DNA from: Vicinamibacterales bacterium
GTDB lineage: Bacteria; Acidobacteriota; Vicinamibacteria; Vicinamibacterales; SCN-69-37
Reading direction: 5' to 3'
NCBI GenBank assembly: GCA_030827135.1
Contig: JAURFE010000002.1
Location: forward strand, 1 to 64,000
DNA length: 64,000 nucleotides
A program made the position numbers and the translations under genes. Within the stretch, counting starts at the first letter, position 1. The number at the start of each line of letters is the position of its first letter. This document shows positions 1-56,907 of the stretch, in pieces. Under the pieces are notes generated by a model. That model had not been told where the DNA came from. It made no database searches and saw nothing but the letters and a program-made list of their open reading frames with translations.

Positions 1-185
1 CCCTTTTCGATGTGGCCCGCCGCCCAGACGCGCAGCGCCTGTCCGAGGGCGGCAATGGCGGCGCCGGCGGCGAGCGTGGTCGGAGTCGGCGCGGCGAGTG
101 TTGCGGCCGCGGCGAAGGTCGCAAAACCCAGGGGCACACGCCAGCGGGCGACCCTGGTCCACATCGTCTTGGCCGGTGCGGTCAC
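1..185 (-). CDS. PEMT/ICMT-like isoprenylcysteine methyltransferase family protein (N-terminal part)
   Basis: Last gene of the LPS operon visible here; its 3' part lies beyond the left edge. The GTG start at 185 overlaps the waaC stop codon as GTGA, and an in-frame ATG lies at 164. The visible 61 residues include WRVPLGF, an Ala-rich hydrophobic segment and then LRVWAAGHIEKG. This resembles the start of small integral-membrane methyltransferases of the PEMT/ICMT superfamily, where a similar 'R.WA.GH..K' stretch precedes the SAM-binding region. The SAM-binding part is outside the window, so substrate and activity are unknown. A lipid or cell-envelope target fits the neighbours, but that is inference. 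Confidence 0.55.
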   Translation of the reverse strand, partial: MTAPAKTMWTRVARWRVPLGFATFAAAATLAAPTPTTLAAGAAIAALGQALRVWAAGHIEK

Positions 186-1306
186 TGTGCCCCGCCGGCG
201 TGCGCGAGGCGCCGCTCGATGGCGGCAGTCACTTCGGCGACGGAAATGGTGCCGAGGCACCACGTGTTGGTTGGGGTTGGGTGCGCGTTGTGCTGCGGGT
301 CGCGGCGGCAGACGCGCTGGTAGTGGCAGTCGCACTGGTGGTAACGCGAGATGGACACGTCCCGATCATCCCATGGACCGTTGCGTTGTTCGGTCGTGGG
401 ACCGAACAACGCGACGACGGGCGTGCCCATTGCACACGCAAGGTGCAATGGGCCGGTGTCGCCCGAGACGAAGATCTTCGCGGCGCCGGCGAGGGCGAGC
501 AGGTCGTTGAAGGTGGTCTGCGGGGCGCGGACGGCCACGCCGCCCGCGCCCGCAACGATGGCGTCGGCGATGGCCTCTTCCCCTGGACCCCAGAGGACGA
601 CGGGGGTCCAGCCGTAGGTGGCGTGGATCCACTGGGCGACCGCGGCGAATGCCGCGGGCGGCCAGCGCTTATTAACCCAGGCAGCGCCTGGGTTAATCAG
701 CGCGAAGTCCGGCGCGGCGCCCTTGGCGGCGCTCGCCGCGCGGAGCGCGGCGAGGGCCGGCGCGGGCTGCAGCGCCACCGGAAAAAGACGTCGGGTGTCT
801 TTTTCGTCGAAAAAGACACCCGACGTCTTTTTCGCGACAACCCAGGTTGTCAGTGCGAGGTTCTTGTCGATGACGTGACGCCCCTCGCCCACCTCCACCT
901 GGTCGGTGTACCACCACCGGGCGGCGGGTTCGCGCAGGGCCTTGGTGTCGAAGCCGATGACCTCGCGCGCGCCGGACAATCGGGCCAGCGCCGCGGACTT
1001 GATCAGTCCCTGCAAATCCAGCGCGAGGTCGTACTTATTCGCGCGCAATTCGCGCGTCGTCGCCAGCCACCCGCTCGCCGACTTCCCTTTCAACACGATC
1101 ACGTTCGAGATCACCGGCACCAGGCGGAGCAGATCCGCATGCGCGGGCTCGACGAGCCAGTCGATCCGCGCGTTCGGGAACGCCTCGCGGAGCCGGGCCA
1201 CCGCCGGGAGGGCATGGACGAGATCCCCCAGCGAGCCAAGACGCACCACGAGAACCCGCGGTGCATGGTTCGTGGTTACTGGTTCATGGTGTCGTTCGGG
1301 GTTCAT
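182..1306 (-). CDS. waaC: Heptosyltransferase I-type glycosyltransferase (GT9)
   Basis: Transfers L-glycero-D-manno-heptose to Kdo in the LPS inner core, at the inner face of the cytoplasmic membrane. The 374-residue protein has the GT9 opening VLVVRLGSLGDLVHALPAV, a GFDTKALREP segment, and the C-terminal donor-binding region FVSGDTGPLHLACAMGTPVVALFGPT. The first 16 residues (MNPERHHEPVTTNHAP) are encoded by GGTTCATGG-type repeats, so the ancestral start may have been nearer VLVVRL. A palindromic element (781-833) adds [17 protein letters not shown] in frame just after the 'DKNLALTTWVV' segment, in what should be the linker between the two Rossmann-like domains. It lies 3 bp after rfaE2 and overlaps the next gene, so it is translationally coupled. 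The exact acceptor specificity is not provable from sequence. Confidence 0.9.
   Translation of the reverse strand: MNPERHHEPVTTNHAPRVLVVRLGSLGDLVHALPAVARLREAFPNARIDWLVEPAHADLLRLVPVISNVIVLKGKSASGWLATTRELRANKYDLALDLQGLIKSAALARLSGAREVIGFDTKALREPAARWWYTDQVEVGEGRHVIDKNLALTTWVVAKKTSGVFFDEKDTRRLFPVALQPAPALAALRAASAAKGAAPDFALINPGAAWVNKRWPPAAFAAVAQWIHATYGWTPVVLWGPGEEAIADAIVAGAGGVAVRAPQTTFNDLLALAGAAKIFVSGDTGPLHLACAMGTPVVALFGPTTEQRNGPWDDRDVSISRYHQCDCHYQRVCRRDPQHNAHPTPTNTWCLGTISVAEVTAAIERRLAHAGGAQ
781..833. repeat. 53-bp nested palindrome, copy A1, in frame inside waaC
   Basis: Two perfect 26-nt arms around one central base (807). Each arm is itself a hairpin: GAAAAAGAC, a 7-nt loop (GTCGGGT or its complement ACCCGAC), GTCTTTTTC. 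The copy is read in frame by waaC as [17 protein letters not shown] and contains no stop codon in the used frame. Confidence 0.95.
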
Positions 1307-1309
1307 GGT

Positions 1310-1783
1310 TCAGGATGCTGGGTTCAATTTATCGACGAGGCTGGTCGTGGAGTGATCTTTAGGATCCCCCACGATGGCAATGCGGCCGCCGTAGGCGCGG
1401 ACGGTGTCGCGCTCGGGGACGGTGTCCAAGGTGTAGTCGGTGCCCTTGCAGTGCACATCCGGTCTCAGCGTCGTGAGCAACCGATCCACCGTGCGGTCGC
1501 TGAAGATGACTACGTAGTCCACACACCGCAGGGCAGCGACAATTTCAGCGCGGGCAGTCTCGGTGAGAATGGGCCGGCCCTCGCCCTTGGAGGCACGGAC
1601 GGACGCATCGCTGTTGACGGCCACCACCAGCCGATCGGCCTCGGCCTTCGCGGCTTCCAGATACCGGACGTGGCCCACGTGCAGCAGGTCGAACGCGCCA
1701 TTGGCAAAGGCCACCGTGCGCCCTGCGGCGCGGTCGGCTTTCACCCGTTCGGCGATTTCGTTGTCCAACAAAATGTGGGCCAT
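1310..1783 (-). CDS. rfaE2: D-glycero-beta-D-manno-heptose 1-phosphate adenylyltransferase
   Basis: Adenylates heptose 1-phosphate to ADP-heptose, the last nucleotide-activation step before heptosyl transfer. The 157-residue protein is the stand-alone equivalent of the C-terminal half of E. coli HldE. It carries the nucleotidyltransferase signature [17 protein letters not shown] (residues about 26-42), VVAVNSD and the HCKGTDYT segment. The kinase half is the separate upstream gene, and a palindromic element sits between the two. It starts at an ATG at 1783 and ends 3 bp before waaC. Confidence 0.95.
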
Positions 1784-1797
1784 GTGTCCGTTTTTGC

Positions 1798-1848
1798 GAA
1801 ATGACGTCGGGTGTCTTTTTCGACGAAAAAGACACCCGACGTCATTTC
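1798..1848. repeat. Nested palindrome, copy A2, with matched arm substitutions, between rfaE1 and rfaE2
   Basis: A perfect 51-bp palindrome centred on 1823. The inner part is identical to the other copies, but the outer stem reads GAAATGACGTC instead of GAAAAAGACGTC, and the opposite arm carries the matching change. This copy is intergenic and ends two bases before the rfaE1 stop codon (1850-1852). Confidence 0.95.
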
Positions 1849-1849
1849 C

Positions 1850-2899
1850 TCAGGGGAGCGAAGCGAGCAGTTCCCGCGAGGTGATGGTAGCGGTGCCGCG
1901 CTTCATGACGACCAGACCGCCGGCGTGGTTGGCGAGCCGCGCGGCCTCACCAAACGTCGCGCCGCAGGCGAGCGCCAGCGAAAACGTGGCGATGACGGTG
2001 TCGCCGGCGCCGGTGACATCCGCAATCTGATCCGACCCGACGATGGGAATGTGATCGGTCGGGCACCCAGGCTCGAACAGCGCCATCCCCTTGCTGCCGC
2101 GCGTGATCAACACAGCGCGTGCCTGCAACTTGCGCAGCAGCGAGCGGCCCGCCTTCTCCAGCACATCCAGGTCATCGCCGATCGTGACGCCGAGCATCGC
2201 CTCGACCTCGGACTCATTCGGGGTGCACGCCGTCACGCCCTTGAAGCCGGCCAGCCCGTACCGCGAGTCGACGAGAATCATCGGCACGCGACCGACATAC
2301 GTGGGTTCGATCCGGGATCGCAGATCCCGCTTCTTGCGCGACTTCCCCGCCGCCCGCGCCTCAGCGCGTTCGACCATCTCCGGCGAATACAGCCCACTGC
2401 CGTAGTCGGACACGATCACGGCATCCGCGTCGGCAATGGCCGAGGCCAGCGACATTTCGATCTTCTTCGACAACGCCTGCGTCTGGCGCACAGACAGACG
2501 CGGGCCCACCCGATCGATCCGCACCACCTGCTGCTTCGCCGAGTGGACGCCCCCCGCCAGCACCCGGGTCTTGACCGGCGTCACGTATCCAGCCGCGCGC
2601 ACCACACCACGCGTCTCCGCACGACGCGGCATGGCGGCCAGCAACCGGCGACCGGAGTCATCACGTCCGACGATGCCGACCACTTTCACCTTCGCGCCAA
2701 GCGACGCGACGTTACTCGCGGCATTGCCCGCGCCACCCGGCAACATCTCGGTCGTGTCGTACTTCAGGATGAGTACCGGGGCTTCGCGCGACACGCGCTC
2801 GACCTGTCCATAGATAAACTCGTCCGCGATCAAATCGCCGGCGACGACGATGTGGGCGGATGAGAAGCGGCTGACAATCTCCGCGTAACGTGCAGTCAT
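1850..2899 (-). CDS. rfaE1: D-glycero-beta-D-manno-heptose-7-phosphate kinase
   Basis: PfkB/ribokinase-family kinase that phosphorylates heptose 7-phosphate at C1 in ADP-heptose synthesis; the stand-alone equivalent of the N-terminal half of HldE. The 349 residues show the N-terminal GDLIADEFIYG segment, PGGAGNAASNVASLGA, ACTPNESE, and the C-terminal anion-hole/catalytic signature DVTGAGDTVIATF with its catalytic Asp. A Lys/Arg-rich stretch, KSRKKRDLRSR, sits in the middle. The ATG at 2899 overlaps the gmhB stop by 4 nt (ATGA). Gene order gmhB-rfaE1-rfaE2 contains the last three steps of the ADP-heptose pathway. Confidence 0.95.
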   Translation of the reverse strand: MTARYAEIVSRFSSAHIVVAGDLIADEFIYGQVERVSREAPVLILKYDTTEMLPGGAGNAASNVASLGAKVKVVGIVGRDDSGRRLLAAMPRRAETRGVVRAAGYVTPVKTRVLAGGVHSAKQQVVRIDRVGPRLSVRQTQALSKKIEMSLASAIADADAVIVSDYGSGLYSPEMVERAEARAAGKSRKKRDLRSRIEPTYVGRVPMILVDSRYGLAGFKGVTACTPNESEVEAMLGVTIGDDLDVLEKAGRSLLRKLQARAVLITRGSKGMALFEPGCPTDHIPIVGSDQIADVTGAGDTVIATFSLALACGATFGEAARLANHAGGLVVMKRGTATITSRELLASLP

Positions 2900-3459
2900 C
2901 GAATCAGTACCTCTGCCACGGCTTCCGACAGATCCGCCGCGACCAGCGTGCCCTCCGGAAGCGTCCGGCCCATCTTCGCGTAATCGCGCTCCCCGTGCCC
3001 CGTCTTCACGAGGATGCCGCGCGCGCCGACGGCCTGCGCCATCTGTATGTCCACATCGCGGTCACCAATCACCCACGACTGCGCGAGATCGATGTTCCGG
3101 CCGCGACAGGCGGCGTCGATCATCGCACGACCCGGCTTCCGACAGGCACAGGGCGTGCGCAGCGACTCGATCACGGCGTTGGGATAGTGCGGACAGAAGA
3201 ACCAGCCGTCGATCGCGCCGCCACTTTCGACAATCTCGGCCTCCATCGACGCGTGAACGGCGTCCACAAACGCCGCATCAAAATATCCCAGGCCAATGCC
3301 GCCCTGGTTGGTCACGACAAACACCAGATAGCCAGCGCGTTTGAGCAGGCGGATGGCGTCTTTGGTGCCGGGATACCACTTCACGTCTTCGAGACGGCTC
3401 AGATATCCCGTCTCGTGGATCATCGTGCCGTCGCGGTCCAGGAAGACCGCGCGATTCAT
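2896..3459 (-). CDS. gmhB: D-glycero-beta-D-manno-heptose-1,7-bisphosphate 7-phosphatase
   Basis: HAD-superfamily phosphatase that removes the 7-phosphate between the two nucleotide-activation steps of ADP-heptose synthesis. The 187-residue protein begins MNRAVFLDRDGTM, so the DxDGT nucleophile motif is at the N-terminus as usual. It has VVTNQGGIG (motif II), the zinc-binding CPHYPN...CACRKPG segment, and VIGDRDVDIQMAQ (motif IV). I chose the ATG at 3459 because it directly precedes the DxD motif and follows a GGTCCAGG array. Reading further upstream gives only repeat-encoded and out-of-frame waaF sequence. Confidence 0.93.
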   Translation of the reverse strand: MNRAVFLDRDGTMIHETGYLSRLEDVKWYPGTKDAIRLLKRAGYLVFVVTNQGGIGLGYFDAAFVDAVHASMEAEIVESGGAIDGWFFCPHYPNAVIESLRTPCACRKPGRAMIDAACRGRNIDLAQSWVIGDRDVDIQMAQAVGARGILVKTGHGERDYAKMGRTLPEGTLVAADLSEAVAEVLIR

Positions 3460-3500
3460 TGGTCCAGGGGTCCAGGGGTCCAAGGGTCCGGGGGTCCGCA
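3460..3500. repeat. GGTCCAGGG-type tandem repeat
   Basis: About four imperfect copies of an 8-9-bp unit GGTCCAGGG between the waaF stop and the gmhB start. The same unit recurs at many gene ends in the window. Confidence 0.85.
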
Positions 3501-3509
3501 AGTCGCTTG

Positions 3510-4604
3510 TCACAAAGACGCTCCCGAGATGCCGAATGCCAGATGCCTTGAGACGGCGGCGAAGACCTGGTCCACGGTAATCCTTTTCATGCAGCGGTGG
3601 TCGATGGGACAGTCGCGCAGGTGGCACGGGCGGCAGAAGACGTCGGCGGTGAGCACATCGCCCCGGCCGAGGGGACGCGTGACGCGTTCGTCGGTGGATC
3701 CGAAGATGGCGACGACGGGGCGGCCGGTGGCGGCGGCGACGTGCATGACGCCGGAGTCGTTCGAGACACAGACGCGGCTGAGTGTAGTCAACGCGACGAG
3801 TGTCGCAAGGTCCGTGCGGCCGATCACATTGACGACGCCGTCGAGGGCCGCCGGCGCATTGGCGCGCAGCCAGGTTTCGATCGCGCGGCCGGCCTCCTTG
3901 TCGTGTCCGGCCCCGACGAGCACACACCGCGCGCCGCGATCATGCACGAGTTTCGCGACGAGCTCCGCCACACGCGTGGGCGGCCATTGCTTGGCCTGGC
4001 CGTACGCGGCACCGGGAGCCAGGGTAATCACGCGGGCGTCTTTCGGTGCGTGGCCGCCGGGCGCGTCGGCCCATCCAAGCATTGCCAGCGCGGTGCTGCG
4101 GCCCACAGCTGACGCCACGATGCGCGGGGCGTCATCGTTCACGGGGATGCCGAAACCGCGCACGAGCTGGCGGTAATACTCGGAATGATGCTGGAGCTTG
4201 CCCGCCGAAGCCTCGGCGAAGGCGGGGGCGGCCGACCTGCGCGTCAAGAGCCAGCCGCGGGCCGATTTTGCATACCCCCAGCGTTGCGGGATGCCGGCGC
4301 GGCGGAGTTGCCAGGCCGATCGGAATGAATTCGGGAAGAGGATACCGAGATCGAAGTGGCCGTCACGCAGTGTTTTGATCACGTCGCGATGCGCAGTCGG
4401 CATCACCACCACCGCATCCGGATTGATACCGGTGTCTTCTCGGAAAAGCGACGCGACGGCGCCGGGTGCGGCGACCGTGAGATGCGCGCTCGCAAAGTGA
4501 CGACGGAGTGCGGCCATGGCGGGAAGCGCGAGCACCGCATCCCCGAGCCAGTTGGGCGGGCGGATGACCAGCCGCGAAACCACGGTGTGATCAGGCGGAA
4601 TCAT
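3510..4604 (-). CDS. waaF: Heptosyltransferase II-type glycosyltransferase (GT9)
   Basis: Adds the second heptose of the LPS inner core. The 364 residues start RLVIRPPNWLGDAVLALPAM, the classic WaaF opening, followed by HFDLGILFPNSFRSAWQLRRAG, the TLAPGAAYGQAKQWP phosphate-binding segment and the C-terminal VSNDSGVMHVAAATGRPVVAIFGST. Near the C-terminus is CRPCHLRDCPIDHRCM, a Cys-rich end common in this family. Residues PAFAEASAGK (encoded around 4199-4226) come from a GCCCGCCGAAGCC...GGCGAAGGCGGG repeat inserted between the GWLLTRR segment and the acceptor-side EYYRQLV segment. The ATG overlaps the lpxL stop codon (ATGA). Confidence 0.93.
   Translation of the reverse strand: MIPPDHTVVSRLVIRPPNWLGDAVLALPAMAALRRHFASAHLTVAAPGAVASLFREDTGINPDAVVVMPTAHRDVIKTLRDGHFDLGILFPNSFRSAWQLRRAGIPQRWGYAKSARGWLLTRRSAAPAFAEASAGKLQHHSEYYRQLVRGFGIPVNDDAPRIVASAVGRSTALAMLGWADAPGGHAPKDARVITLAPGAAYGQAKQWPPTRVAELVAKLVHDRGARCVLVGAGHDKEAGRAIETWLRANAPAALDGVVNVIGRTDLATLVALTTLSRVCVSNDSGVMHVAAATGRPVVAIFGSTDERVTRPLGRGDVLTADVFCRPCHLRDCPIDHRCMKRITVDQVFAAVSRHLAFGISGASL
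4199..4227. repeat. CCCGCCGAAGCC...GGCGAAGGCGGG element in frame in waaF
   Basis: A GC-rich imperfect palindrome with CCCGCC/GGCGGG ends and an inner GCCGA/TCGGC stem. It is read as PAFAEASAGK. A longer relative with the same flanks lies at 12934-12975. Confidence 0.75.
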
Positions 4605-5566
4605 TTCGCGTCCATCCCTTCCAGCCCGGAGCTCTCATCCGAACTAGTCGGGTACATGCCGCCCACCGCATCTGCGCCGGTGACGTCCTCGCGCCAGCGC
4701 CGGTGCATCCACAGCCACCATTCAGGATTGCGGCGTACGTACATTTCGAGCACGTCGGTGCACCGCTGCGTGAACTCCGTGACGGGATCGGGCGCGTCGG
4801 GCAGCGGCGGCTCCACGGGATGTTCGTAGACGAGGCGATACCGGCCATCCGGCATGGGCAGGCAGAAGAGCGGAATCACGGGCGCGCCGGTGCGAAGCGC
4901 GAGCGCGGCGGCGGCCGATGTGGTGGAGGCCGGTCGCCCAAAAAACGTCACGGTCACGGCATCAACGGGCTGGATGTGCTGATCGATGAGAATCGCCACC
5001 AATTCATTGTCCTGCAGCGCGCGCAGCACTTTGCGCACGGCTCCGCGCCGATAAATCACACGATTGCCGGTCGAGGTACGGACACGTTCGAGCAGGTCGT
5101 GCAGATACGGATTGTCGAGCCGGCGCGCTAGCACGGACATCGGCGGCAGCACCAGGGGATGCCCCATGCCCTGCACCTCCCAGAACCCGAAGTGGCCGGT
5201 GACCAGCAGCACACCTTTGCCTCCGGCAAGCGCCTGACGCACCCGATCGTCGCCATCGACGATGATGCGCGCGCGGATCTGATCGGGCGAGAGCGTGCTG
5301 AACTTCAGCAGGATCGTGAGCGACCGGCCGAAGTGCGCGAAGGTGCGACGCGCGATGCGCCTGCACTCCGCGTCCGGCCTGCCCGGGAACGCGGCGCGCA
5401 ACTGCGTATACGCAAGCCGCCGATGCCCCCCGTCAACGGCCCAGAACACCCACCCGATCGCGGTGCCAATCGCGCGGACGAGACTGTCGGGGCAGAGCCC
5501 GAGCATCGCGCGCAGGGTGGCGACGATCGCGTATTCCGCGCGGTGCTGGAGCGCGCGCACACTCAC
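4601..5566 (-). CDS. lpxL: Lipid A late acyltransferase (LpxL/HtrB family)
   Basis: Membrane-associated lysophospholipid acyltransferase family protein expected to add a secondary acyl chain to Kdo-lipid A. The 321 residues include the N-terminal AFPGRPDAECRRIARRTFAHFGRS segment, the HX4E catalytic motif as GHFGFWEVQG (about residue 120), RRLDNPYLHDLLERVR, and the C-terminal YVRRNPEWWLWMHRRW. The GTG start at 5566 overlaps the lpxK stop as GTGA. The acyl chain and position used cannot be read from the sequence, so LpxL rather than LpxM is an assumption. Confidence 0.88.
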   Translation of the reverse strand: MSVRALQHRAEYAIVATLRAMLGLCPDSLVRAIGTAIGWVFWAVDGGHRRLAYTQLRAAFPGRPDAECRRIARRTFAHFGRSLTILLKFSTLSPDQIRARIIVDGDDRVRQALAGGKGVLLVTGHFGFWEVQGMGHPLVLPPMSVLARRLDNPYLHDLLERVRTSTGNRVIYRRGAVRKVLRALQDNELVAILIDQHIQPVDAVTVTFFGRPASTTSAAAALALRTGAPVIPLFCLPMPDGRYRLVYEHPVEPPLPDAPDPVTEFTQRCTDVLEMYVRRNPEWWLWMHRRWREDVTGADAVGGMYPTSSDESSGLEGMDAK

Positions 5567-6579
5567 GTCGTGAGCCTCGCGCGGGTCGGGGTTCGCTCAC
5601 GCGCGTCTGCGACGCGCTGAGCCAGCCACGTCTCAAACTCCGGGCCGTCATCGTCGGGCTCGATCGTCACGGAGTGGCCGAGGACGTGGAGGTCGAACGG
5701 CAGCGGCCGGAACGGCCGCAGCCGTTCGGCGTCTTTGGCGGTCGTCAGGACGGCGATGGCCGGGGCGCCGGCCGCATCGGCCGCATCGGTGAGCGCGCGG
5801 ACGTCGCGCGCGAGGCGCGCGACGTCCGCGCGCGTGTAGCGATGGTGGTCGCCGGGGGCCCACTGGCCGGCGACGACGTAGCCGGCGTCTTCGGCCGCGC
5901 GCGCGACACGCGCGGGGCCGGCGATGCCGGCGAGGACGAATACCTGCGCGCCGGCCGCCAAGCCGGCGGGGGCGTGGGTGTGGCGATGGAGCCGAAAAAG
6001 ACGTCGGGTGTCTTTTTCATCGAAAAAGACACCCGACGTCTTTTTCGGGGCGTCACCGTCCACCACCACCGCGTCCGCCCGCGCGAGTGCCGACGGCGAC
6101 TCGCGCAGGCGGCCCAGTGGCACCCGGCGACCGGTCAGGTCGCCGGGTGCCACCAGCACCAGATCCACATCACGGTGCATCTCCCGATGCTGAAACCCAT
6201 CGTCCAGCACGACCGCCGTGGCGCCCAGGACGTGCTGCGCCAGCGCGGCCGCAACGGCGCGCTGATCACAAACAAGCACGGAAATTCCGGGCAATTCGCG
6301 GGCGAGCATGAGGGGTTCGTCGCCGGCATGGTCGAGGTCAGCGAGGATCTCCGACCCGTCGCTGACCACCGTGACCCCATCGGCGACCACACGCCGGCCA
6401 AACCCCCGGGAGAGGATGGCCACACGCTCGCCCATCGCCTGCAGGGTGCGGGAGACACAGGCAACAGTCGGGGTCTTCCCGCGCCCGCCAAAGGCGATGT
6501 TTCCGACACTGACAGAAAAGACGTCGGGTGTCTTTTTCGACGAAAAAGACACCCGACGTCTTTTTTCGGGCAGGGTCAT
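5563..6579 (-). CDS. lpxK: Tetraacyldisaccharide 4'-kinase with two palindromic insertions
   Basis: Phosphorylates the 4' position of the lipid A disaccharide. The core has SVGNIAFGGRGKTPTV (Walker A), VLSRGFGRR-type sequence, and LDDGFQHREMHRDVDLVLV, as expected. Two features are odd. First, only about 22 residues precede SVGN (about 50, including a membrane anchor, is usual), and these are largely repeat-derived ([17 protein letters not shown], element at 6515-6567). Second, a further copy at 5992-6048 inserts [17 protein letters not shown] after RADAVVVDGDA, in the loop before VFVLAGIAGPARV. The ATG at 6579 overlaps the waaA stop (ATGA) and is the natural start. The catalytic core is intact, so the gene is probably functional, but membrane anchoring may differ. 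Confidence 0.9.
   Translation of the reverse strand: MTLPEKRRRVSFSSKKTPDVFSVSVGNIAFGGRGKTPTVACVSRTLQAMGERVAILSRGFGRRVVADGVTVVSDGSEILADLDHAGDEPLMLARELPGISVLVCDQRAVAAALAQHVLGATAVVLDDGFQHREMHRDVDLVLVAPGDLTGRRVPLGRLRESPSALARADAVVVDGDAPKKTSGVFFDEKDTRRLFRLHRHTHAPAGLAAGAQVFVLAGIAGPARVARAAEDAGYVVAGQWAPGDHHRYTRADVARLARDVRALTDAADAAGAPAIAVLTTAKDAERLRPFRPLPFDLHVLGHSVTIEPDDDGPEFETWLAQRVADARERTPTRARLTT
5992..6048. repeat. Nested palindrome, copy A3, in frame inside lpxK
   Basis: A 57-bp inverted repeat centred on 6020 with one mismatch beside the centre. The 53-bp core is that of copy A1. It is read in lpxK in the same frame as in waaC ([17 protein letters not shown]). Confidence 0.95.
6515..6567. repeat. 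Nested palindrome, copy A4, in frame at the lpxK N-terminus
   Basis: The centre is 6540; 24-nt arms are perfect, with length variation only in the outer A/T tract. It is read in a different frame from A1 and A3, giving [16 protein letters not shown]. Confidence 0.95.
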
Positions 6580-7892
6580 CGCGCGATCACCAGCCGCGGG
6601 CCGGCGGGCGGCAGCAGCGACGCCACCGCGGCGAGCGTCTTCGGACGCGCGCCCCGGTTCGCCTCCACCAGCGTCCGGGCCGAGGCGCCCAGCCGGGCGC
6701 ACTCGGCCGGGTCGCTGACCAGGCGCACCCAGGCAGTCGCCAGCTCCGCCGGCGACCCGACCTGGACGGCGGCACCGGCATCGAGGAACGTCTTCGCAAT
6801 CTCCGCGAAGTTCGACATGTACGGCCCGAACACGATCGGCTTGCCGTGCACGGCGGGCTCGAGAATGTTGTGCCCGCCGTGATCGATCAGACTGCCCCCG
6901 ACAAACACGGCGGTCGCCACCTGAAACAGATGCGCGAGTTCGCCGATGGTGTCGAGAATCACAACGTCGGCCTGCGGCTCACTATCGACCACGAGCGACG
7001 ACCGCCGCACCACGCGATACCCTTCCGCGCGCGCGAGCGCCTCCGCCTCGTCAAAGCGTTCGGGCTTCCGCGGTGCCACAATCAGCATCGTCGTCGGATG
7101 CGTCCGGCGCACGGCCGCGAAGGCCGCCAGCACGGGGGGCTCCTCGCCTTTTAATGTGCTCGCGGCCAGCAAGACAGGCCGGCCTTCCGGCATACGGAAG
7201 AACCGCAACACACGACCCGCCCCACGCCCGGCCGCCGCAGACGGCGATTCCAGTGATTCGAACTTCAGGCTGCCCGTCACGGTGACCCGCGCGGGATCCG
7301 CGCCGATGTCGATGATGCGGCGCGCCGACCCCTCACTCTGCATGCAGAACTGATCGACGTTGGTGAGCACCCGGCGGAAGAATCCGCGCACCAGGCGATA
7401 CCGCGGGTACGACCGCGACGAAATCCGCCCGTTGACCATCAGCGTCCGCACGCCATCCCGCTTGCAGGCGCGCAGCAGGTTCGGCCAGATCTCGGTTTCC
7501 ATCATGATGAACAGCCGCGGCCGCACCAGCCGCAACGTCCGGTTCACGAAAATCGGCAGGTCGAACGGGAAATAAAACACCGCGTCCACCTCGGTCAGCC
7601 GTTCCCGCGCAATCTGCTGGCCGGTGATCGTGGTGGTGGACAGAAAAATCTTCAGATCGGGATATTGCCGCCGCAGGTCCGGCAGGAGCGCACGGACGGT
7701 CAGCGCCTCCCCGACCGACACCGCATGGATCCAGATGGACTCGTCGCCGTCCAGGTTGAACGACACCGGCAGCACACCCATCCGCTGGCCGACGCTGCTG
7801 ACGTACTTGCCATACCGCAGCGCCTGATAGAGGAACCAGGGGAACAGGGCCACCGCCAGGACAAAGATGGCGAGTGAGTAGAGAGAGTACAC
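6576..7892 (-). CDS. waaA: 3-deoxy-D-manno-octulosonic acid transferase
   Basis: Transfers Kdo to lipid A precursor at the inner membrane; first gene of the LPS operon. An N-terminal membrane anchor (SLAIFVLAVALFPWFLYQAL) is followed by the GT30 domain with IWIHAVSVGEA, FLSTTTITGQQIA, METEIWPNLL, and a GT-B donor half with VFVGGSLIDHGGHNILEPAVHGKPIVFGP (in short: GGSL, GGHN, EP). I place the start at GTG 7892, giving 438 residues that begin VYSLYSLAIF. This fits both the family N-terminus and a -10 box 9 nt upstream. A TTG at 7928 would add 12 residues encoded by promoter sequence. Confidence 0.92.
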   Translation of the reverse strand: MYSLYSLAIFVLAVALFPWFLYQALRYGKYVSSVGQRMGVLPVSFNLDGDESIWIHAVSVGEALTVRALLPDLRRQYPDLKIFLSTTTITGQQIARERLTEVDAVFYFPFDLPIFVNRTLRLVRPRLFIMMETEIWPNLLRACKRDGVRTLMVNGRISSRSYPRYRLVRGFFRRVLTNVDQFCMQSEGSARRIIDIGADPARVTVTGSLKFESLESPSAAAGRGAGRVLRFFRMPEGRPVLLAASTLKGEEPPVLAAFAAVRRTHPTTMLIVAPRKPERFDEAEALARAEGYRVVRRSSLVVDSEPQADVVILDTIGELAHLFQVATAVFVGGSLIDHGGHNILEPAVHGKPIVFGPYMSNFAEIAKTFLDAGAAVQVGSPAELATAWVRLVSDPAECARLGASARTLVEANRGARPKTLAAVASLLPPAGPRLVIAR

Positions 7893-7901
7893 AGACCAGA
7901 G

Positions 7902-8966
<1,065 letters not shown>

Positions 8967-13022: not shown

Positions 13023-14885
13023 ATGCCCCTGCTGATTGCCGACCACCTGTCCCACGCCTTTGGCCACCTCCCCCTTCTGGTAGACGGGTCGCTGCAAATC
13101 GACGCCGGCGAACGCATCGCCATCGTCGGGCGCAACGGCACGGGGAAATCCACGCTGCTGAAGATCCTGGCAGGGAACATTTCGCCGGATGCGGGCACCG
13201 TGTGGACGGGCCCCGGCGTGAAGGTGGCGCGACTGACGCAGGACGTCATCGATGCGGGCGAGACCGCCACCACGGTGCGCGGCGTCGTCGCCGAAGGCCT
13301 GCACGAACTGGCCGTGGCGCATCACCTCGAGGACTGGGAACAGGAACAACTCGTGGACCAGGTGATGAAACGCCTGAACCTCGACCCGGACCGGCTCATC
13401 AGCACGCTGTCGGGCGGATGGCGGCGACGCGTAACACTCGCGCGCGCGCTGGTCGTCCAGCCTGATCTGCTGCTGCTTGACGAACCGACGAACCATCTCG
13501 ACATCGACACGATCACGTGGCTGGAATCGCTGCTGATCGGATTCGCCGGAGCCGTCGTGTTCGTCACACACGACCGTGCGTTTCTACAGAAGGTCGCCAC
13601 GCGACTGGTGGAACTCGATCGCGGTGTATTGACGTCGTACGGTCGCGGCGTATCCGTCAAAGGCGCGCCGGCCCTGCCGGTGTACGAAGAGTATCTGCGC
13701 CGCAAGGAGGAAGACCTCGCGATCGCGGAAACGGCACACGCAAAGTTCGACAAGAAGCTTGCGCAGGAAGAGGCGTGGCTGCGCCGCGGGATCAAGGCCC
13801 GCCGCACCCGCGACGAAGGCCGCGTCAAGGCCCTGCTGGCCATGCGCCAGGAACGTGCGGCGCGACGCGACGTGCCGGGACAGGTCAAACTGTCGATCGA
13901 GTCATCGGGGCGCACGGGACAGGCGGTGTTTGAGGCAAAAACCATTTCAAAGACATTTGTGGTCGAGGGTCCAGGGTCCAGGGGCCAGGGTCCGCTCATT
14001 GCAAACTTCTCCACGCGCATTATGCGGAAGGACCGGATCGGGTTCCTCGGGCCGAATGGGGCGGGGAAGACGACGCTGCTGAAGATGCTGATCGGGGAGT
14101 TGGCCCCTGACAGCGGCACGGTGGAGCGCGGGACGAACGTGCAGATCGCGTATTACGACCAGCAGCGCGAACAACTGGACCCGGATCGCACGGTCGTGGA
14201 CACGATTGCCGATGGCAACGACTGGGTCACCGTCAACGAACAGAAGCGCCATGTGTTCAGCTACCTCGAAGACTTCCTGTTCCCGCCCGAACGCGCGCGG
14301 TCGCCGGTGAAGTCGTTGTCAGGTGGTGAACGCAATCGCCTGCTGCTCGCGCGGTTGTTCACGCAGCCGTCGAACGTGCTGGTGCTCGACGAACCCACAA
14401 ACGACCTCGATCTCGAAACCCTCGAGCTGCTCGAAGCCCAGCTTGTGGACTTCCCCGGCACGGTGCTCCTTGTCAGCCACGATCGCGAATTCCTCAATCG
14501 CGTCGTGACATCCACGATCGCCTTCGAAGGCGACGGTGTCGTGCGCGAATACGTGGGGGGCTATGACGATTACCTGAGGCAGACACAAGTGGTCCGAGGG
14601 TCCAGGGTCCAAGGTCCCACCCAACCTCACCCAACCTCACCCAACCTGACCCAACCTGTCCGCCGGAGGCTGTCCTTCAAGGAACAAAAAGAACTCGACG
14701 GGATGGCGGCGAAGGTCGAGGCGACTGAGGCTCGGCAGCGCGAGTTGGAAGCGGCCATCGCGGCACCGGAGTTTTATCGCGGCGGCGCCAAGGCGATCCA
14801 GGACACGCTCGCGGATCTCGAGAAGGTCAAAATCGAGCTCGACACGCTGCTTCATCGGTGGACGGAACTCGAAGAAAGACGCTGA
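13023..14885 (+). CDS. ABC-F family ATPase (Uup type)
   Basis: A soluble twin-ATPase protein; ABC-F proteins act on the ribosome as translation factors or antibiotic-protection factors, and Uup members also bind DNA structures. Domain 1 has Walker A GRNGTGKST (residues 36-44), LSGGWRRR and LDEPTNHLD; domain 2 has GPNGAGKTT (about 343), LSGGERNR and LDEPTNDLD. The inter-domain linker is Arg/Lys-rich, and the C-terminal coiled coil typical of Uup is present (KEQKELDGMAAKVEATEARQ). Two repeat-derived insertions are in frame: VEGPGSRGQGP before domain 2 (GGTCCAGGG units) and RGSRVQGPTQPHPTSPNLTQP before the C-terminal coil (GGTCCAGG and CCCAACCTCA units). No membrane segments occur. Confidence 0.93.
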   Translation: MPLLIADHLSHAFGHLPLLVDGSLQIDAGERIAIVGRNGTGKSTLLKILAGNISPDAGTVWTGPGVKVARLTQDVIDAGETATTVRGVVAEGLHELAVAHHLEDWEQEQLVDQVMKRLNLDPDRLISTLSGGWRRRVTLARALVVQPDLLLLDEPTNHLDIDTITWLESLLIGFAGAVVFVTHDRAFLQKVATRLVELDRGVLTSYGRGVSVKGAPALPVYEEYLRRKEEDLAIAETAHAKFDKKLAQEEAWLRRGIKARRTRDEGRVKALLAMRQERAARRDVPGQVKLSIESSGRTGQAVFEAKTISKTFVVEGPGSRGQGPLIANFSTRIMRKDRIGFLGPNGAGKTTLLKMLIGELAPDSGTVERGTNVQIAYYDQQREQLDPDRTVVDTIADGNDWVTVNEQKRHVFSYLEDFLFPPERARSPVKSLSGGERNRLLLARLFTQPSNVLVLDEPTNDLDLETLELLEAQLVDFPGTVLLVSHDREFLNRVVTSTIAFEGDGVVREYVGGYDDYLRQTQVVRGSRVQGPTQPHPTSPNLTQPVRRRLSFKEQKELDGMAAKVEATEARQRELEAAIAAPEFYRGGAKAIQDTLADLEKVKIELDTLLHRWTELEERR

Positions 14886-15005
14886 CGGTCCAGGAGTCCA
14901 GGAGTCCAGGAGTCCAGGAGTCCAGGGGTCCAGGGGTCCAGGGGTCCAGGGGTCCAAGACCAACCGCCCACCCGCCCACCTACCCACCCGCCCAGCCACC
15001 GCCCG
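14886..15005. repeat. GTCCAGGAG tandem array followed by CCCACCCGCC repeat
   Basis: About nine copies of the 9-bp unit GTCCAGGAG/GTCCAGGGG between 14888 and 14957, then degenerate CCCACCCGCCCA units that run into the apbE 3' end. The gap lies between two convergent genes. Confidence 0.9.
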
Positions 15006-16020
15006 CCCGACAGAACGTCACCCCGACAGGCAATGTGACGTTCCACAACTCCTCGTCCGTCAGCACACTGAGCGCTGTGGCCCAGGCATCGGCCGTCGCG
15101 CCGTCGGGGGCGCGCACGTGGACGGTGCGGTGACTGGTCAGGCCCAGTCCCGTGCTCGGGTCCACCACGTGTGAATACCGCACGCCATCGATGACGACAA
15201 ATTGTGCGGTCGCGCCGGAGGTGGCCAGGGCGGCGTTGGCGAGGGAGACGGTCGTGGCGTTATTGGCGCGCTCAAGTTCAGCGCGCCCTCGTTTGGCCCG
15301 CTCAAGTTCAGCGGGCCCTCGTTTGGCCCGCTCAAGTTCAGCGGGCCCTACATGTTCAGCGAGCCCTACATCACATCCCACTTGCGCCACCCATCCGCGC
15401 GAGCTGCGGGGAGGGGTGCCGGCGACGATGTCGCCGCCGGCGTCGATGAGCGCGGCGGTGATGCCGTGGTCGCGCAGAGTGTCCATCGCACGCTGGAGGA
15501 TGTAGCCCTTGGCGATGCCGCCGAGGTCGAGGCGCATGCCGGCAACGGGCAGCCGCACGAAAAAACCTCCCGACGTTTTTTCCAGATGCAGGCGCGACCA
15601 GTCGACGAGCGCACGGGCGTCGGCGAGGCGATCGGGCGCCGGGAGGCGGCCGGACCGGCGCGCCTCGCGCCACAAGACGACGACGGGAGCGATGGTGGGA
15701 TCAAACGCGCCGTGGGTCGCGCGCGCCACGTCCACGGCCTGCGACAAGACAGCGAACACGTCGGGATGGACCTGCAGCGCATGTGGCGCGGCGCGCTCGA
15801 TGGCGCGCAGGTCGCTGTCGGGCCGGTAGTCGCTGAGCCGCGCGTCGAGCGCGGCGATGGCCGCAAACGCGGCCTCCCCCGCCCTCCGCGCGGCCGCCTC
15901 ATCGGGCGCCTCCATCGCGATCCGCACTTCCATCCCCATATGGACCTGCCGATAGACGTAAGATTCCCGAAATGAAGTCGGAAGAGTGGCGCACGACAAG
16001 GACAGGACCGCCACGCACAA
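14980..16020 (-). CDS. apbE: FAD:protein FMN transferase (ApbE family) with repeat insertions
   Basis: Attaches FMN to a Thr of extracytoplasmic flavoproteins such as Rnf/Nqr subunits. The core has MRLDLGGIAKGYILQRAMD, LIDAGGDIVAGTPP, ALATSG and YSHVVDPSTGLGLTSHRTV. The start is uncertain: a TTG at 16020 gives CVAVLSLSC, a lipobox; the ATG at 15939 would remove it. Three repeat insertions are in frame. EKTSGGFF comes from a half copy of the nested palindrome (15559-15582). AELERAKRGP-type 10-residue repeats come from 30-bp hairpin units (15265-15347) and lie just before the SLANAALATSG motif. The C-terminal GGGWAGG runs into a CCCGCC repeat. No Rnf or Nqr genes are in the window. Confidence 0.88.
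   Translation of the reverse strand: MCVAVLSLSCATLPTSFRESYVYRQVHMGMEVRIAMEAPDEAAARRAGEAAFAAIAALDARLSDYRPDSDLRAIERAAPHALQVHPDVFAVLSQAVDVARATHGAFDPTIAPVVVLWREARRSGRLPAPDRLADARALVDWSRLHLEKTSGGFFVRLPVAGMRLDLGGIAKGYILQRAMDTLRDHGITAALIDAGGDIVAGTPPRSSRGWVAQVGCDVGLAEHVGPAELERAKRGPAELERAKRGRAELERANNATTVSLANAALATSGATAQFVVIDGVRYSHVVDPSTGLGLTSHRTVHVRAPDGATADAWATALSVLTDEELWNVTLPVGVTFCRAGGGWAGG
15265..15377. repeat. Tandem 30-bp hairpin units (family B) in frame in apbE
   Basis: Three units of 23 nt (GGCGCGCT or GGCCCGCT, loop CAAGTTC, complementary arm) spaced by CTCGTTT, starting at 15265, 15295 and 15325, plus a degenerate fourth. The 30-bp period keeps the reading frame and encodes a 10-residue repeat of the AELERAKRGP type. 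The second and third copies have GC swaps matched on both arms (GCGC to CCCG). Confidence 0.93.
15559..15582. repeat. Half copy of the nested palindrome in frame in apbE
   Basis: A single hairpin GAAAAAAC, loop CTCCCGAC, GTTTTTTC. The loop shares CCCGAC with the full 53-bp elements. It is read as EKTSGGFF, close to the KKTSGVFF of waaC and lpxK. Confidence 0.8.
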
Positions 16021-16024
16021 GAAA

Positions 16025-16080
16025 ACGGTCCAGGGGTCCAGAGGTCCAGGGGTCCAGGAGTCCAGGAGTCCAGAGGTCCT
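16025..16080. repeat. GGTCCAGGG/GTCCAGGAG array between divergent genes
   Basis: About six copies of the 9-bp unit fill the gap between the apbE start and the FGE-like gene. If the latter starts at ATG 15972, the array encodes part of its N-terminal region (RGPEVQGSRSPGVQRS). Confidence 0.9.
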
Positions 16081-16085
16081 TCCTC

Positions 16086-16853
16086 GTGGCGGTCGCGATG
16101 ATCGTGGCCGCGACCAGTGTGCTTGCACAGTCACAACCCTCAACGTATCGCGAAACGATTGCCGGCACGCTGGTGAGCTTTGAAATGGTCCTGGTGCCGG
16201 GGAGCGCGACGCAGCCGTCCTTTTACATGGGCCGCACGGAAGTGACGTGGGACCTGTACGACGTGTACGCGCTGGGACTTGATGCAGACGCCCCGAAGCC
16301 GGCAGGCCTCGATGCGATCGGTCGTCCGTCGAATCCGTACGGCGCGCCTGACTACGGCTGGGGACACGCGGGGTACGCCGCGATCAGCGTGACCCGGCAC
16401 GCCGCCGAATCGTTCACGAAATGGCTTTCCCTCAAGACGGGACGGGAGTATCGTCTCCCCACCGACGCGGAGTGGCAGCACGCGGCGACGCTCGCCTGGC
16501 AGGGCAAGACCGCCGACGAAGTCGCCTGGCACGCCGGCAACGCGGGTATGGTGACGCATCCGGTGTCCAGGAAGGCACCCGACGCGTTGGGATTGTTCGA
16601 CCTGTTTGGCAACGCCGGGGAATGGGTGATGACCCCGGGCGACACACGCGTAATTCGCGGCGGCACGTATCGAAGCGGCCCGGATACCATCGGCCCGACC
16701 GCGCGCGCCGAACAGGACGAGACGTGGAACGAACGCGACCCGCAGCTGCCCAAGAGTCAGTGGTGGTTGTCGGACGGACCCTTTGTTGGATTTCGTGTGG
16801 TCCAGGGGTCCAGGGTCCAGGGTTCGGGTCCAGGGGTCCGAGGGAGAAAAGCG
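16086..16853 (+). CDS. Exported SUMF1/FGE-like domain protein, no stop codon of its own
   Basis: Formylglycine-generating-enzyme (SUMF1) fold: VLVPGSATQPSFYMGRTEVTW, then YRLPTDAEWQHAA, GLFDLFGNAGEWV, VIRGGTYRSGP and the terminal GFRVV. The N-terminus VAVAMIVAATSVLAQ is a signal-peptide core cleaved after Ala. I place the start at GTG 16086; an ATG at 16098 or 15972 is possible, the last adding a repeat-encoded basic region but running antisense to the apbE start. No cysteines are visible in the domain, so the two catalytic cysteines of true formylglycine-generating enzymes are missing. A sulfatase-activating role is therefore unlikely, and a structural or binding role more likely. The frame continues into the next gene. 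Confidence 0.75.
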
Positions 16854-27671: not shown

Positions 27672-27675
27672 CATT

Positions 27676-27798
27676 GGCCCGCTCCAACCCAGCGGGCCCT
27701 GCGTGTTCCTCGGAGGGCGCGCGTGCTCCTCGGAGGGCGCGCTGCACTTGAGCGCGCCGGACATGGCCCGCTCCAACCCAGCGGGCCCTGCGTGACGG
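27676..27798. repeat. Cluster of family B hairpins
   Basis: GGCCCGCTCCAACCCAGCGGGCC at 27676-27698 and again at 27768-27790, with GGAGGGCGCGC-type units between. It fills the 149-bp gap between the PIG-L gene and the MFS gene. Confidence 0.85.
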
Positions 27799-42072: not shown

Positions 42073-42142
42073 GCAGGGCGCGCTACAGCCCAGCGCGCCC
42101 TACGTACCCGCGGCGCGCTGCAGCCCAGCGCGCCCTACTGCG
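42073..42142. repeat. Two family B hairpins between convergent genes
   Basis: GGGCGCGCT-ACAGCCC-AGCGCGCCC and, 37 bp on, GGCGCGCTGCAGCCCAGCGCGCC, separated by CTACGTACCCGC. The second overlaps the end of the BNR gene. Confidence 0.85.
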
Positions 42143-45935: not shown

Positions 45936-46060
45936 AGGGCGCGCTGGGATTGAGCGCGCCCTGGGCCCACGACGCGGTTCATGGTTCGCGGCGGGAGTGG
46001 CCCGCTCAAGCTCAGCGGGCCCTACATGCCCATGGCGCGCTACAACCCGGCGCGCGCCCT
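45936..46060. repeat. Cluster of family B hairpins with a GGTTCATGG unit
   Basis: Hairpins GGGCGCGCTGGGATTGAGCGCGCCC, GGCCCGCTCAAGCTCAGCGGGCC and GGCGCGCTACAACCCGGCGCGC, each followed by CCTACATG or similar, fill a 137-bp convergent gap. A GGTTCATGGTTC unit lies at 45978. Confidence 0.85.
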
Positions 46061-50698: not shown

Positions 50699-50862
50699 GT
50701 TGTTATTGAGGATTGAGGAATGAGGATTGAGGATTGGCAATTGATCAATTGTCGATTGGGGGATTGAATTCCCTCAATCCCTCAATCCCTCAATCAATCC
50801 CGCAATCCTCAATTGATCAATTGCCAATCCTCAATCCTCATTCCTCAATCCTCAATAACAAC
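50699..50862. repeat. Perfect 53-bp inverted repeat filling a convergent gap (family D)
   Basis: Left arm 50699-50751 and right arm 50810-50862 are exact reverse complements. They are built from GGATTGAG units followed by GGCAATTGATCAATTG. The 58-bp spacer itself contains a smaller imperfect inverted repeat. The structure occupies nearly the whole gap between the epimerase stop and the stop of the next, convergent gene. Confidence 0.97.
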
Positions 50863-53516: not shown

Positions 53517-53575
53517 GCGGGGGAGTGTCGCACAATCCGGCCGATCCATCACAGCCGCGCCCGCCGGCACCTGTC

Positions 53576-53700
53576 GGCGCGCTCAAGTTCAGCGCGCCCT
53601 ACGTACATCGGCGCGCTCAAGTTCAGCGCGCCCTACGTACATCGGCGCGCTCAAGTTCAGCGCGCCCTACGTACGTCGGCGCGGTCGAGTTCAGCGCGCC
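53576..53700. repeat. Four tandem 34-bp family B hairpin units
   Basis: Units begin at 53576, 53610, 53644 and 53678. Each has GGCGCGCT-CAAGTTC-AGCGCGCC followed by CTACGTACATC. The fourth has GGTCGAG variants and contains the xylB stop codon. The first three are almost identical, indicating recent tandem duplication. Confidence 0.95.
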
Positions 53701-55205
53701 TGACGCACGACCTGCTCGAACGCCGCGTACTGTGCTCGCAGGTCGCGGTACACCGAGACCGCGTCAGGTCGCGGCGCAAAGACCTGCCCTGTCGGCTGCG
53801 CGAGGTCGCACGTCACGTCGTGCCACGAGAGCGGGTGGCTGGACGATGCGGCGTCGGCGTGCCAGGCACGGAGCGCACCGCCAAGGCAGGCCGAGTTGCC
53901 GACGTGGAAGCGCCTGACAGTGGCGTTGAACACATCGGCCATGATCTGCAGGATGTCGTTGTTCACTGCGGCGCCGCCGGTCGCGTGGATATCGCGCACG
54001 TCCACGCCCATCCACGCGGAGTGATTGGCCATCGCCATCATCTGCGCCTCGAGCACGGCACGCACATTCGCCGCGGCGTCAGCAGGGTCCAGGTCGCGCC
54101 GATGGACGCCGGGCGTGGGCATGTCCGGAGTAATTTCGGGCTCGAACCACGGCAGCATCAGCCGGCCGTGATTGCCGGGCGGCGTCGCCCGCAACGCGGC
54201 GGACACACCCGGCCAGTCGAGGCCATACGTATCCCGGACGGTCTCGCGCGCCAGGGATCCGTTCTTGAAGACCGTAATCCCCATGTAGTCGCCCGTGGGA
54301 GCGCCAAAGACATGTCCCGTGCCGCCGGCGTCAACCCGCGGCTCGCGCATCAGGCCGAAAATGGTGTCGCTGGTGCCCAGTGACACCCCTACGCGCCCTT
54401 CCTCGATGAGGCCCGTGCCAATCAGGCTCGACGGATTGTCACCGGTCCAGACGACGACGCGCGCGGCGGGCAGGCGGAAGCGCGCCTGCCATCGCGGCGC
54501 GAGTGTGCCGATGATCGTCCCGGCCGGCACAATCATCGGCAACCGCGTCGCCAGGCCAGGCGCCGTCGCCTCGACCGCGTCCGGCCACCAACTGCCGGTC
54601 GACAGGTCCATGAGGTTCATGCCGCTGGCGTCACCGGGATCGAGAGGAGCCTCGGCATCGATCAGCTCCGACGCCAGGAACGAACTGACCAGATGCACCC
54701 GCGCGGTCTCCGCGTAGCCGTGCGGATCTGTCTCGAAGAACTTCCGGATCTGCGGCCCCGTGAACCGCTCGAAGGCGCGCGACCCCGTGCGCGCGGCCAG
54801 GGCGGCCGCCCCGCCGAGTGCCTGAGTGATTTCCAGACACTCGTCGCGCGTACTCGTGTCCATCCAGATCGGCGCGACGGACCGCGAGAAGCTGCCGTCA
54901 GCGGCGAGATACACGCTGCCGTGCTGCTGCGCCGCCCCAGAGATGGCGCGCAGGGTCGACAGGTCGTGCCCGCTCGACGCCAGCGCCGCGAACATGAGCT
55001 CGAGCGCCTCCGCCCACATCGCCGGAGGAGACACGGCCACCGACGGGTCCTCCGTCGGCAACACGCCGTGGCGCGTCCCGTACTGCGGCAGCGAGTCATC
55101 AAACGGCATCGCGTGCTCCCAGACGACCGACGCACGCCCATCGGTCACACGAATCAGGACGGCAGATACGCTCTGTGTTGAGCTATCGAGGCCCAAATAG
55201 GTCAC
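53691..55205 (-). CDS. xylB: Xylulokinase-like FGGY carbohydrate kinase
   Basis: Phosphorylates a ketose, most likely D-xylulose, to feed the pentose phosphate pathway. The 504 residues have the N-terminal ATP-fold motif VTYLGLDSSTQSVSAVLI, ISGAAQQHGSVYL, PIWMDTSTRDECLEIT, VWTGDNPSSLIGTGLIEEGRVGVSLGTSDTIFG and the C-terminal DIHATGGAAVNNDILQIMADVFN (in part), all FGGY features. I choose the GTG at 55205, which overlaps the upstream stop as GTGA and has GGGAA 6 nt upstream. A GTG at 55217 would add four residues. The 3' end lies in a hairpin repeat. Confidence 0.88.
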   Translation of the reverse strand: MTYLGLDSSTQSVSAVLIRVTDGRASVVWEHAMPFDDSLPQYGTRHGVLPTEDPSVAVSPPAMWAEALELMFAALASSGHDLSTLRAISGAAQQHGSVYLAADGSFSRSVAPIWMDTSTRDECLEITQALGGAAALAARTGSRAFERFTGPQIRKFFETDPHGYAETARVHLVSSFLASELIDAEAPLDPGDASGMNLMDLSTGSWWPDAVEATAPGLATRLPMIVPAGTIIGTLAPRWQARFRLPAARVVVWTGDNPSSLIGTGLIEEGRVGVSLGTSDTIFGLMREPRVDAGGTGHVFGAPTGDYMGITVFKNGSLARETVRDTYGLDWPGVSAALRATPPGNHGRLMLPWFEPEITPDMPTPGVHRRDLDPADAAANVRAVLEAQMMAMANHSAWMGVDVRDIHATGGAAVNNDILQIMADVFNATVRRFHVGNSACLGGALRAWHADAASSSHPLSWHDVTCDLAQPTGQVFAPRPDAVSVYRDLRAQYAAFEQVVRQAR

Positions 55206-56278: not shown

Positions 56279-56752
56279 GTGCGACGACTGGTCATGACAA
56301 CCGGAGTGCTGCTGATGGCAATGAGTGGGAGCGGAATGGCGCAGGGGCAGTGGCCCACCAAACGGGTGCTGACGCTGGAAGCGGCTAACAGGGCGGCGGA
56401 TGCGGCCGAAGCCGAGGCGCGCAGGAACAACTGGGCGGTGTCCATTGCCGTCCTCGATGACAGCGGACACCTGATCGTGTTCCGGCGCATGGACGGCGCG
56501 AAGCTGGTCGCGACCGACATCGCGATTCGCAAAGCCAGGACGGCGGCCTACTTCCAGGGCGAGACCAAGGCCCTGGAGGCGGAAGTCGCCGGCGGCCGGA
56601 CGGCGTTGCTGCCCATCGACGGGTTCATGCCGCTCGAAGGCGGCGTGCCCATCACGTCAGGTGGTCAACTCGTCGGCGCGATCGGCGTCAGCGGCGTCAC
56701 CGGTGCCCAGGACGCGCAGTGCGCGATCGCCGGAGCAGCGGCCATTAAGTGA
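56279..56752 (+). CDS. Exported GlcG/HbpS (DUF336) family protein
   Basis: A 157-residue protein with a signal peptide (VRRLVMTTGVLLMAMSGSGMAQ) and the GlcG/HbpS fold: LTLEAANRAADAAEAEARRNNWAVSIAVLDDSGHLIVFRRMDGA, IAIRKARTAAYF, and the terminal GGQLVGAIGVSGVTGAQDAQCA (in part). Family members bind heme or are linked to glycolate use; neither is proven here. The GTG start at 56279 has GGAGGAG at optimal distance; an ATG at 56294 is possible. Confidence 0.87.
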   Translation: MRRLVMTTGVLLMAMSGSGMAQGQWPTKRVLTLEAANRAADAAEAEARRNNWAVSIAVLDDSGHLIVFRRMDGAKLVATDIAIRKARTAAYFQGETKALEAEVAGGRTALLPIDGFMPLEGGVPITSGGQLVGAIGVSGVTGAQDAQCAIAGAAAIK

Positions 56753-56907
56753 ATGGGGCAATTGGGCAATGAGGCAATGGGGCAATGGAATTGCCGCAAT
56801 TGGAAAATGGGTTAATGCAATGGCCGTAATTCTGGGAATTCCATTGACGCATTGTGGAATTGCGGGAATTCCATTGCCTCATTGCCCCATTGCCTCATTG
56901 CCCCATT
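56752..56907. repeat. 50-bp-arm inverted repeat of GGCAATGA units between convergent genes (family D)
   Basis: Arms 56752-56801 and 56858-56907 are complementary at about 44 of 50 positions. Both touch the stop codons of the flanking convergent genes. The interior holds more GGAATTCCATTG palindromes. Confidence 0.93.

Follow-up and report, generated by a model that had tools for sequence, protein, structure and literature searches.

REPIN palindromes translated in the single lpxK gene of a lake Acidobacteriota bacterium, and a different REPIN class at the same sites in a sister genome

REPINs are dispersed elements in which two inverted REP arms form one hairpin. The cognate element flanks a gene for a single-domain Y1/HUH transposase, the RAYT, and single-arm relics occur (Bertels and Rainey 2011, PMC3116915; Nunvar 2010, PMC2817692). 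Excision of REPIN doublets has been seen in Pseudomonas (PMC3116915), and in Pseudomonas and Stenotrophomonas syntenic RAYTs can be flanked by different REP classes, the REP "orthoswitch" (Nunvar 2013, PMC3686654). The field has yet to explain the spread of REPs and the joint change of a RAYT with its REP class, and the authors who described the orthoswitch regarded its mechanism as open only to speculation (PMC3686654). Intragenic REPs and Rickettsia palindromic elements (RPEs) form in-frame coding palindromes, at times two per gene, with dnaE2 among the genes hit; that work (Di Nocera 2013, PMC3733652) also reports different REPs at about the same recB site in two Xanthomonas species.

Here we describe a lake bacterium (Vicinamibacterales) whose sole lpxK carries two translated palindromes of a mobile type. 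The same sites hold different classes in two sister genomes, and empty, nested, and relic states are on view, so the mechanism is directly testable. REPINs can be fixed within many conserved proteins, which means that a DNA element can rewrite protein linkers.

Anatomy of the element and its RAYT

The window, which is the whole 64,000-nucleotide stretch that we analyzed, contains a minus-strand run of LPS core and lipid A genes at 185-7928 (heptosyltransferase, heptose kinase and nucleotidyltransferase, further transferases, lpxK, and waaA; Table 1). This run carries four REPINs, three of them in frame in genes. The upstream neighbor of lpxK is presumably waaA, a name given from position and sequence rather than from a family-library scan.

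Table 1. Coordinates of genes and palindromes in the LPS gene run of the window
Feature	Position	Strand	Details
LPS heptosyltransferase (GT9; TIGR02193)	185..1309	minus	in-frame REPIN
REPIN A1 inside heptosyltransferase	779..836		A' at the same position in G004
Heptose-1-P cytidylyl/adenylyltransferase-like domain (PF01467), open frame	1313..1849	minus	
REPIN A1 at junction of heptose-7-P kinase stop and cytidylyltransferase start	1795..1852		A' at the same position in G004
Heptose-7-phosphate kinase (rfaE domain I), open frame	1853..3061	minus	
lpxK (tetraacyldisaccharide 4'-kinase)	5563..6579	minus	sole genome copy; ATG overlaps waaA stop
REPIN A1, central lpxK copy	5992..6048		arms 5992-6018 and 6022-6048; 27-bp perfect arms, ATC spacer
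REPIN A1, N-terminal lpxK copy	6514..6567		arms 6516-6539 and 6541-6564; 24-bp perfect arms, 1-nt spacer
waaA (presumed Kdo transferase), upstream neighbor	6576..7928	minus	stop overlaps lpxK start
Related palindrome, family D (GACCTCTGAGGTC)	7904..7948		5' end of waaA

The two lpxK palindromes are near-perfect, and the other two copies of the gene run were also located as palindromes, at 781-833 and 1798-1848. No palindrome comparable in size to those in lpxK was found in a shuffled window. The element consists of two inverted REP arms (AAAAGACGTCGGGTGTCTTTTTC) of 24-27 bp with a spacer of mostly 1-20 nt, and it forms a single hairpin of -32.8 kcal/mol (as DNA). Each arm is also a small hairpin, with a 10-bp stem and -7.9 kcal/mol in subfamily A1 and a weaker fold in subfamily A2 (-2.5) and in A' (-2.3), the class of the sister genome G004. 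Family A has 53 matches over both strands of the host genome (G000), at about 30 places, and some of these are single-arm. A GTAG-type tetranucleotide beside the palindrome was not found (the consensus reads GAAA[AT]GACGTCGGG...); some RAYT-associated repeats are likewise described as having none (PMC3733652).

The host genome encodes a RAYT (G000:C11:1080581-1080919) with REPIN A on each side of the gene. The protein is a Y1_Tnp member (PF01797, over cut-off) with an HUH motif (MPNHFHLVV ... YVERNALRAGLV), and its C-terminus is encoded by the REPIN (...KKTSGVFFEEKDTRRLF). The RAYTs of G002 and G006 are also flanked by REPIN A, and in four congeners the RAYT is flanked by A or a close relative. 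In G000 and G004 the RAYT lies between the same transporter-like gene and rho, names that we take from sequence rather than from a family-library check. At this syntenic locus the G004 RAYT has a different palindrome, A' (AAATGAGCTCGGAGGCGATTTC), on both sides. The initial annotation of this DNA did not identify the element; we are highly confident that it is a RAYT-linked REPIN, and it would thus be a non-autonomous mobile DNA of two inverted REP hairpins moved by the RAYT, a Y1/HUH single-strand transposase.

G000 and G004 each encode a second, distant RAYT with a two-arm copy of another palindrome family beside it. A third RAYT group (G001, G003, G005, and G006) has a half-arm resembling family B near by in three of the four genomes; palindrome scans near the RAYT-B genes gave one half-arm in each of three genomes and nothing with two arms.

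Other repeats were observed in the window. A second palindrome family (GGCGCGCTCAAGTTCAGCGCGCCCTAC), the one with a two-arm copy beside the second RAYT, is dispersed at 15264-15370, 27675-27791, 42076-42138, 45998-46060, and 53574-53708, and also occurs at G000:C51:143589. Long hairpins with 69-70-bp arms (96% and 84% complementary) are present at 50699-50862 and 56752-56907; short repeats (AATCCTC or GGCAATGG) make up both. Arrays of an 8-nt unit (GGTCCAGG) are dispersed at 14885-14963, 16025-16087, and 3443-3513.

Reading frames and the structure of LpxK

Minus-strand translation confirms that the two lpxK palindromes are read in two different frames, as had been noted from the sequence alone; KTPDVFSVSVGN is one of the peptides predicted from the REPIN-encoded parts. 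The element had been described as open in at least two frames, and the stop count goes further. The consensus has zero stops in all six frames, which is true of 1.5% of shuffled palindromes matched for arm composition. Subfamily A2 and family B are also open in six frames (3.8% and 5.9% of shuffles), the A' element has one TGA in one frame, and the central lpxK copy has a TGA in one frame only, a frame that is not used. The stop-free frames are suggestive of selection against stops.

Beyond lpxK, at least 12 REPIN copies are in frame in conserved genes, so the elements are not confined to extragenic locations. Genes with in-frame copies include those for the heptosyltransferase, mutS2, metH, homoserine dehydrogenase, a GcvT/YgfZ-like protein, a MrfA-like helicase, and a BatA-like gene, as well as hpnE (two copies, in two frames) and dnaE2 (one two-arm and one single-arm copy). 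Most of these genes were confirmed by family models, and the gene counts are minimum counts.

In-frame copies in many conserved genes and frames free of stops are also features of RPEs (PMC3733652), and would be expected of a palindromic element of the Rickettsia type, meaning a selfish coding repeat that needs no dedicated transposase to spread. However, four congeners have a RAYT with this element or a close relative on its flanks, and the arm lacks the fold of a CGTC-tagged REP. Such an origin is therefore very improbable. We rejected membership in the CGTC-tagged REP/RPE group (CGTC, then an 8-9-bp stem and a 4-5-nt loop); from the CGTC inward, the fold has only -0.3 kcal/mol.

LpxK, with both palindromes included, passes the TIGR00682 lpxK equivalog cut-off in a profile search, and its open frame is full length. 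The catalytic and Walker residues of the protein are intact: an alignment with 25 relatives shows no variation at K35, T36, D87, E88, D126, D127, and H131 and almost none at H245/H246. The invariant residues align with K51, T52, D99, E100, D138, D139, and H143 of Aquifex LpxK, the roles of which have been described (PMC6286764). By analogy with other Gram-negative bacteria, lpxK is presumably essential in this host.

A second intact lpxK, with this copy decaying, had been proposed as an observation to look for; the genome holds one intact lpxK, and we rejected a decaying duplicate. Decay of the gene, or an assembly artefact, would fit the two foreign segments in a single gene and the absence of the canonical N-terminal helix. 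Against this stand the single copy, the full open frame, the score over cut-off, and the invariant catalytic residues, and independently assembled congeners (all genomes compared are metagenome assemblies) show palindromes at the same sites. The probability that we assign to decay or artefact is negligible. The claim that lpxK tolerates the element twice holds up for a gene that is single-copy, intact, and presumably essential, with both palindromes away from the catalytic residues.

An AlphaFold2 model of LpxK (mean pLDDT 86) has Aquifex LpxK, 4EHX, as its best PDB match. The N-terminal REPIN peptide is predicted to be a low-confidence tail (residues 1-15 with pLDDT under 50, no helix). The central REPIN peptide (about residues 178-197) is predicted to form a short helix of moderate confidence and the start of a strand (193-202). 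This strand aligns with about residues 188-207 of the Aquifex protein, in the inter-domain connection or hinge region, which adjoins the adenine-contacting Y187 and R206 (PMC6286764). Both sites had been expected to be surface loops. The model agrees with this at the N-terminus, where the copy falls in a disordered tail, but not at the center, where the right half of the copy falls in a predicted strand. As modeled, the central REPIN spares the catalytic core and yet is more than an added loop.

The word "insertions", used in the initial annotation, is an overstatement. The REPIN at the central site stands in for a variable segment of roughly 21 residues, and it is not simply an added loop because relatives free of the palindrome carry a segment of about the same length; on these grounds we rejected pure added surface loops for the center. 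At the first hpnE site (L162:16958-18493), the REPIN was also observed in place of a variable stretch that has a similar length in relatives, not added to it.

Aquifex LpxK needs an N-terminal amphipathic membrane helix for activity (PMC6286764). The helix is missing from LpxK in this genus, including that of G003, and the N-terminal REPIN occupies the spot where the genus had already lost it. A role of the palindrome in causing the loss is not supported, because G003 lacks both helix and palindrome. Most likely the REPIN does nothing for LpxK and LpxK tolerates the REPIN. Copies in coding sequence would survive only where the host tolerates the peptide (an N-terminal tail, a linker, or a variable hairpin), and their survival may be helped by arms that are stop-free in almost any frame.

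Shared sites and class change in the genus

G004 is a sister genome in which LpxK is 81% identical and the surrounding DNA about 84-87% identical. It holds a related but different REPIN, A' (GAGCTCGGAGGCGATTT), at each of the two lpxK sites and at ten or more further loci; that sister species carry different palindrome families at both lpxK sites is the most informative finding and could not be seen from the window alone. A' occurs at about 40 places in G004, and none was found in G000. At about 13 loci, including both lpxK sites and both other REPIN A1 sites of the window, A in G000 and A' in G004 are at the same position, and the flanks adjoining the element are about 75-93% identical.

We took the census on the four fully covered G000 contigs, as the largest contig was only sampled. 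Of 17 testable A' sites, 12 carry A in G000 (11 intact and 1 relic); of the other five, four are empty and one is ambiguous. The chance of such an overlap under uniform placement is about 1e-40, a value that rejects independence only and does not separate inheritance from a shared target preference. Two single-arm REPs of G004 keep the old A sequence, compared with 1 of about 36 two-arm elements (Fisher p=0.012, from approximate counts). Because these single-arm REPs are at places where G000 also has A, it is probable that A was already present in the common ancestor of the two genomes and that single-arm copies escaped rewriting.

The arms of A2 and A' align at most positions and differ by a few changes each, which allows for descent of A' from A. 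The RAYTs of G000 and G004 are 55% identical, whereas their flanking DNA is 84-90% identical. The RAYT tree has no clear branching order inside the A clade and fits the G004 RAYT either as a fast-evolving orthologue or as a replacement; with the order not separated, we gave up RAYT phylogeny as a means to date the switch.

Congeners further removed show other states of the same sites: unrelated palindromes, nested ones, or none. Family B occupies the lpxK N-terminus in both G001 and G006, and in G006 a REPIN A is nested exactly between the arms of this family B palindrome, at the lpxK start (G006:C43 10687-10817, L110). The central lpxK site of G001 again holds family B, and that of G006 holds family D with what seem to be remnants of B on either side. 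G003 lpxK has a palindrome at neither site. The metH linker holds A in G000, A' in G004, a D-like palindrome in G006, and B in G001, and no palindrome was found there in G003, G007, and G010. One of the hpnE sites is filled in G000, G004, and G002 and empty in G003 and G006, and in G001 and G005 it seems degenerate; metH and hpnE thus show the same cross-species pattern as lpxK. The nesting and the states of these sites across species show that new REPINs are at least occasionally inserted into old ones and that some linkers are used repeatedly.

Shared sites might also arise by independent insertion, if the RAYTs of A and A' recognize the same rare targets and each lineage fills the same empty sites. 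The four A' sites that are clean and empty in G000 indicate that new insertions do occur, and different families at the metH and lpxK sites of several species are what permissive hot spots would give. However, we found no target motif outside the arms, with base frequencies close to background 7-22 nt upstream. Some shared sites are intergenic and free of protein constraint, and the single-arm A relics of G004, where G000 still has A, point to an A-bearing ancestor. We consider independent insertion unlikely overall. Repeated insertion into a few permissive linkers could mimic replacement at intragenic sites; it is a live rival at coding sites and less so at intergenic ones.

Slow concerted evolution by ordinary RecA gene conversion among REPIN copies, with no part played by the RAYT, is somewhat more plausible and a live rival, though still doubtful. 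Gene conversion was proposed for REPs long ago (Higgins 1988, cited in PMC8266576), and only a few changes per arm lead from A2 to A'. This route does not fit the spacers, which were swapped along with the arms, or the single-arm copies, which were not converted. In addition, the two genomes with different REPIN classes also have strongly different RAYTs at the RAYT locus.

Considering the observed anatomy, RAYT association, positions, and nesting, it is likely that the REPINs were moved by the RAYT, that the old sites were kept, and that the class was replaced in one lineage. The entry of REPINs into lpxK and many other loci would predate the split of G000 and G004. The RAYT and the REPIN class would then have changed in a lineage, with the new class replacing the old at the old sites. 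This could have happened through conversion of one REPIN by another with the help of the RAYT, or through excision and a new insertion at the same, regenerated target. Replacement in place, taken as such, is our favored reading with somewhat less assurance. From sequence comparison we infer that the RAYT moves the element, that the host tolerates the peptide, and that replacement took place at the old sites. There is perhaps an even chance that REPIN sites are lasting docking sites and that a change of RAYT specificity rewrites the whole two-arm population in place. If so, a transposase would re-edit short stretches of many host proteins in concert, among them essential ones such as LpxK, while the elements stay where they are.

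Comparison with described REP systems

The elements share with REPINs and RAYTs (PMC3116915, PMC2817692) the two inverted arms in one dispersed hairpin, the flanked transposase gene, and the single-arm relics. They differ in having no GTAG tag, in numbering only tens of copies, and in being, in many cases, in frame in conserved genes and not intergenic. As in the orthoswitch (PMC3686654), one locus, beside rho, has one class in G000 (A) and another in G004 (A'). In the orthoswitch model the new class spreads while old copies stay and decay, whereas here most old two-arm copies seem to have been replaced in place: A persists in G004 in no more than one two-arm copy and two single-arm relics.

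The remaining comparisons are with systems described in Di Nocera 2013 (PMC3733652), the only work on in-frame REP insertions in Acidobacteria that our literature search returned. The CGTC-tagged REPs (RPE-4, RPE-6) are said there to have no transposase, whereas the RAYT described here is flanked, and partly encoded, by the element. The TIRYT/TIRtrons of Acidobacteria are likewise RAYT relatives flanked by inverted repeats that have no GTAG. Only one of three Koribacter TIRs was a repeated family, and the portion available describes neither in-frame copies nor a class change that preserves sites. In-frame REPs and class switching are already known; genome-wide replacement that preserves sites inside essential coding genes appears to be new.
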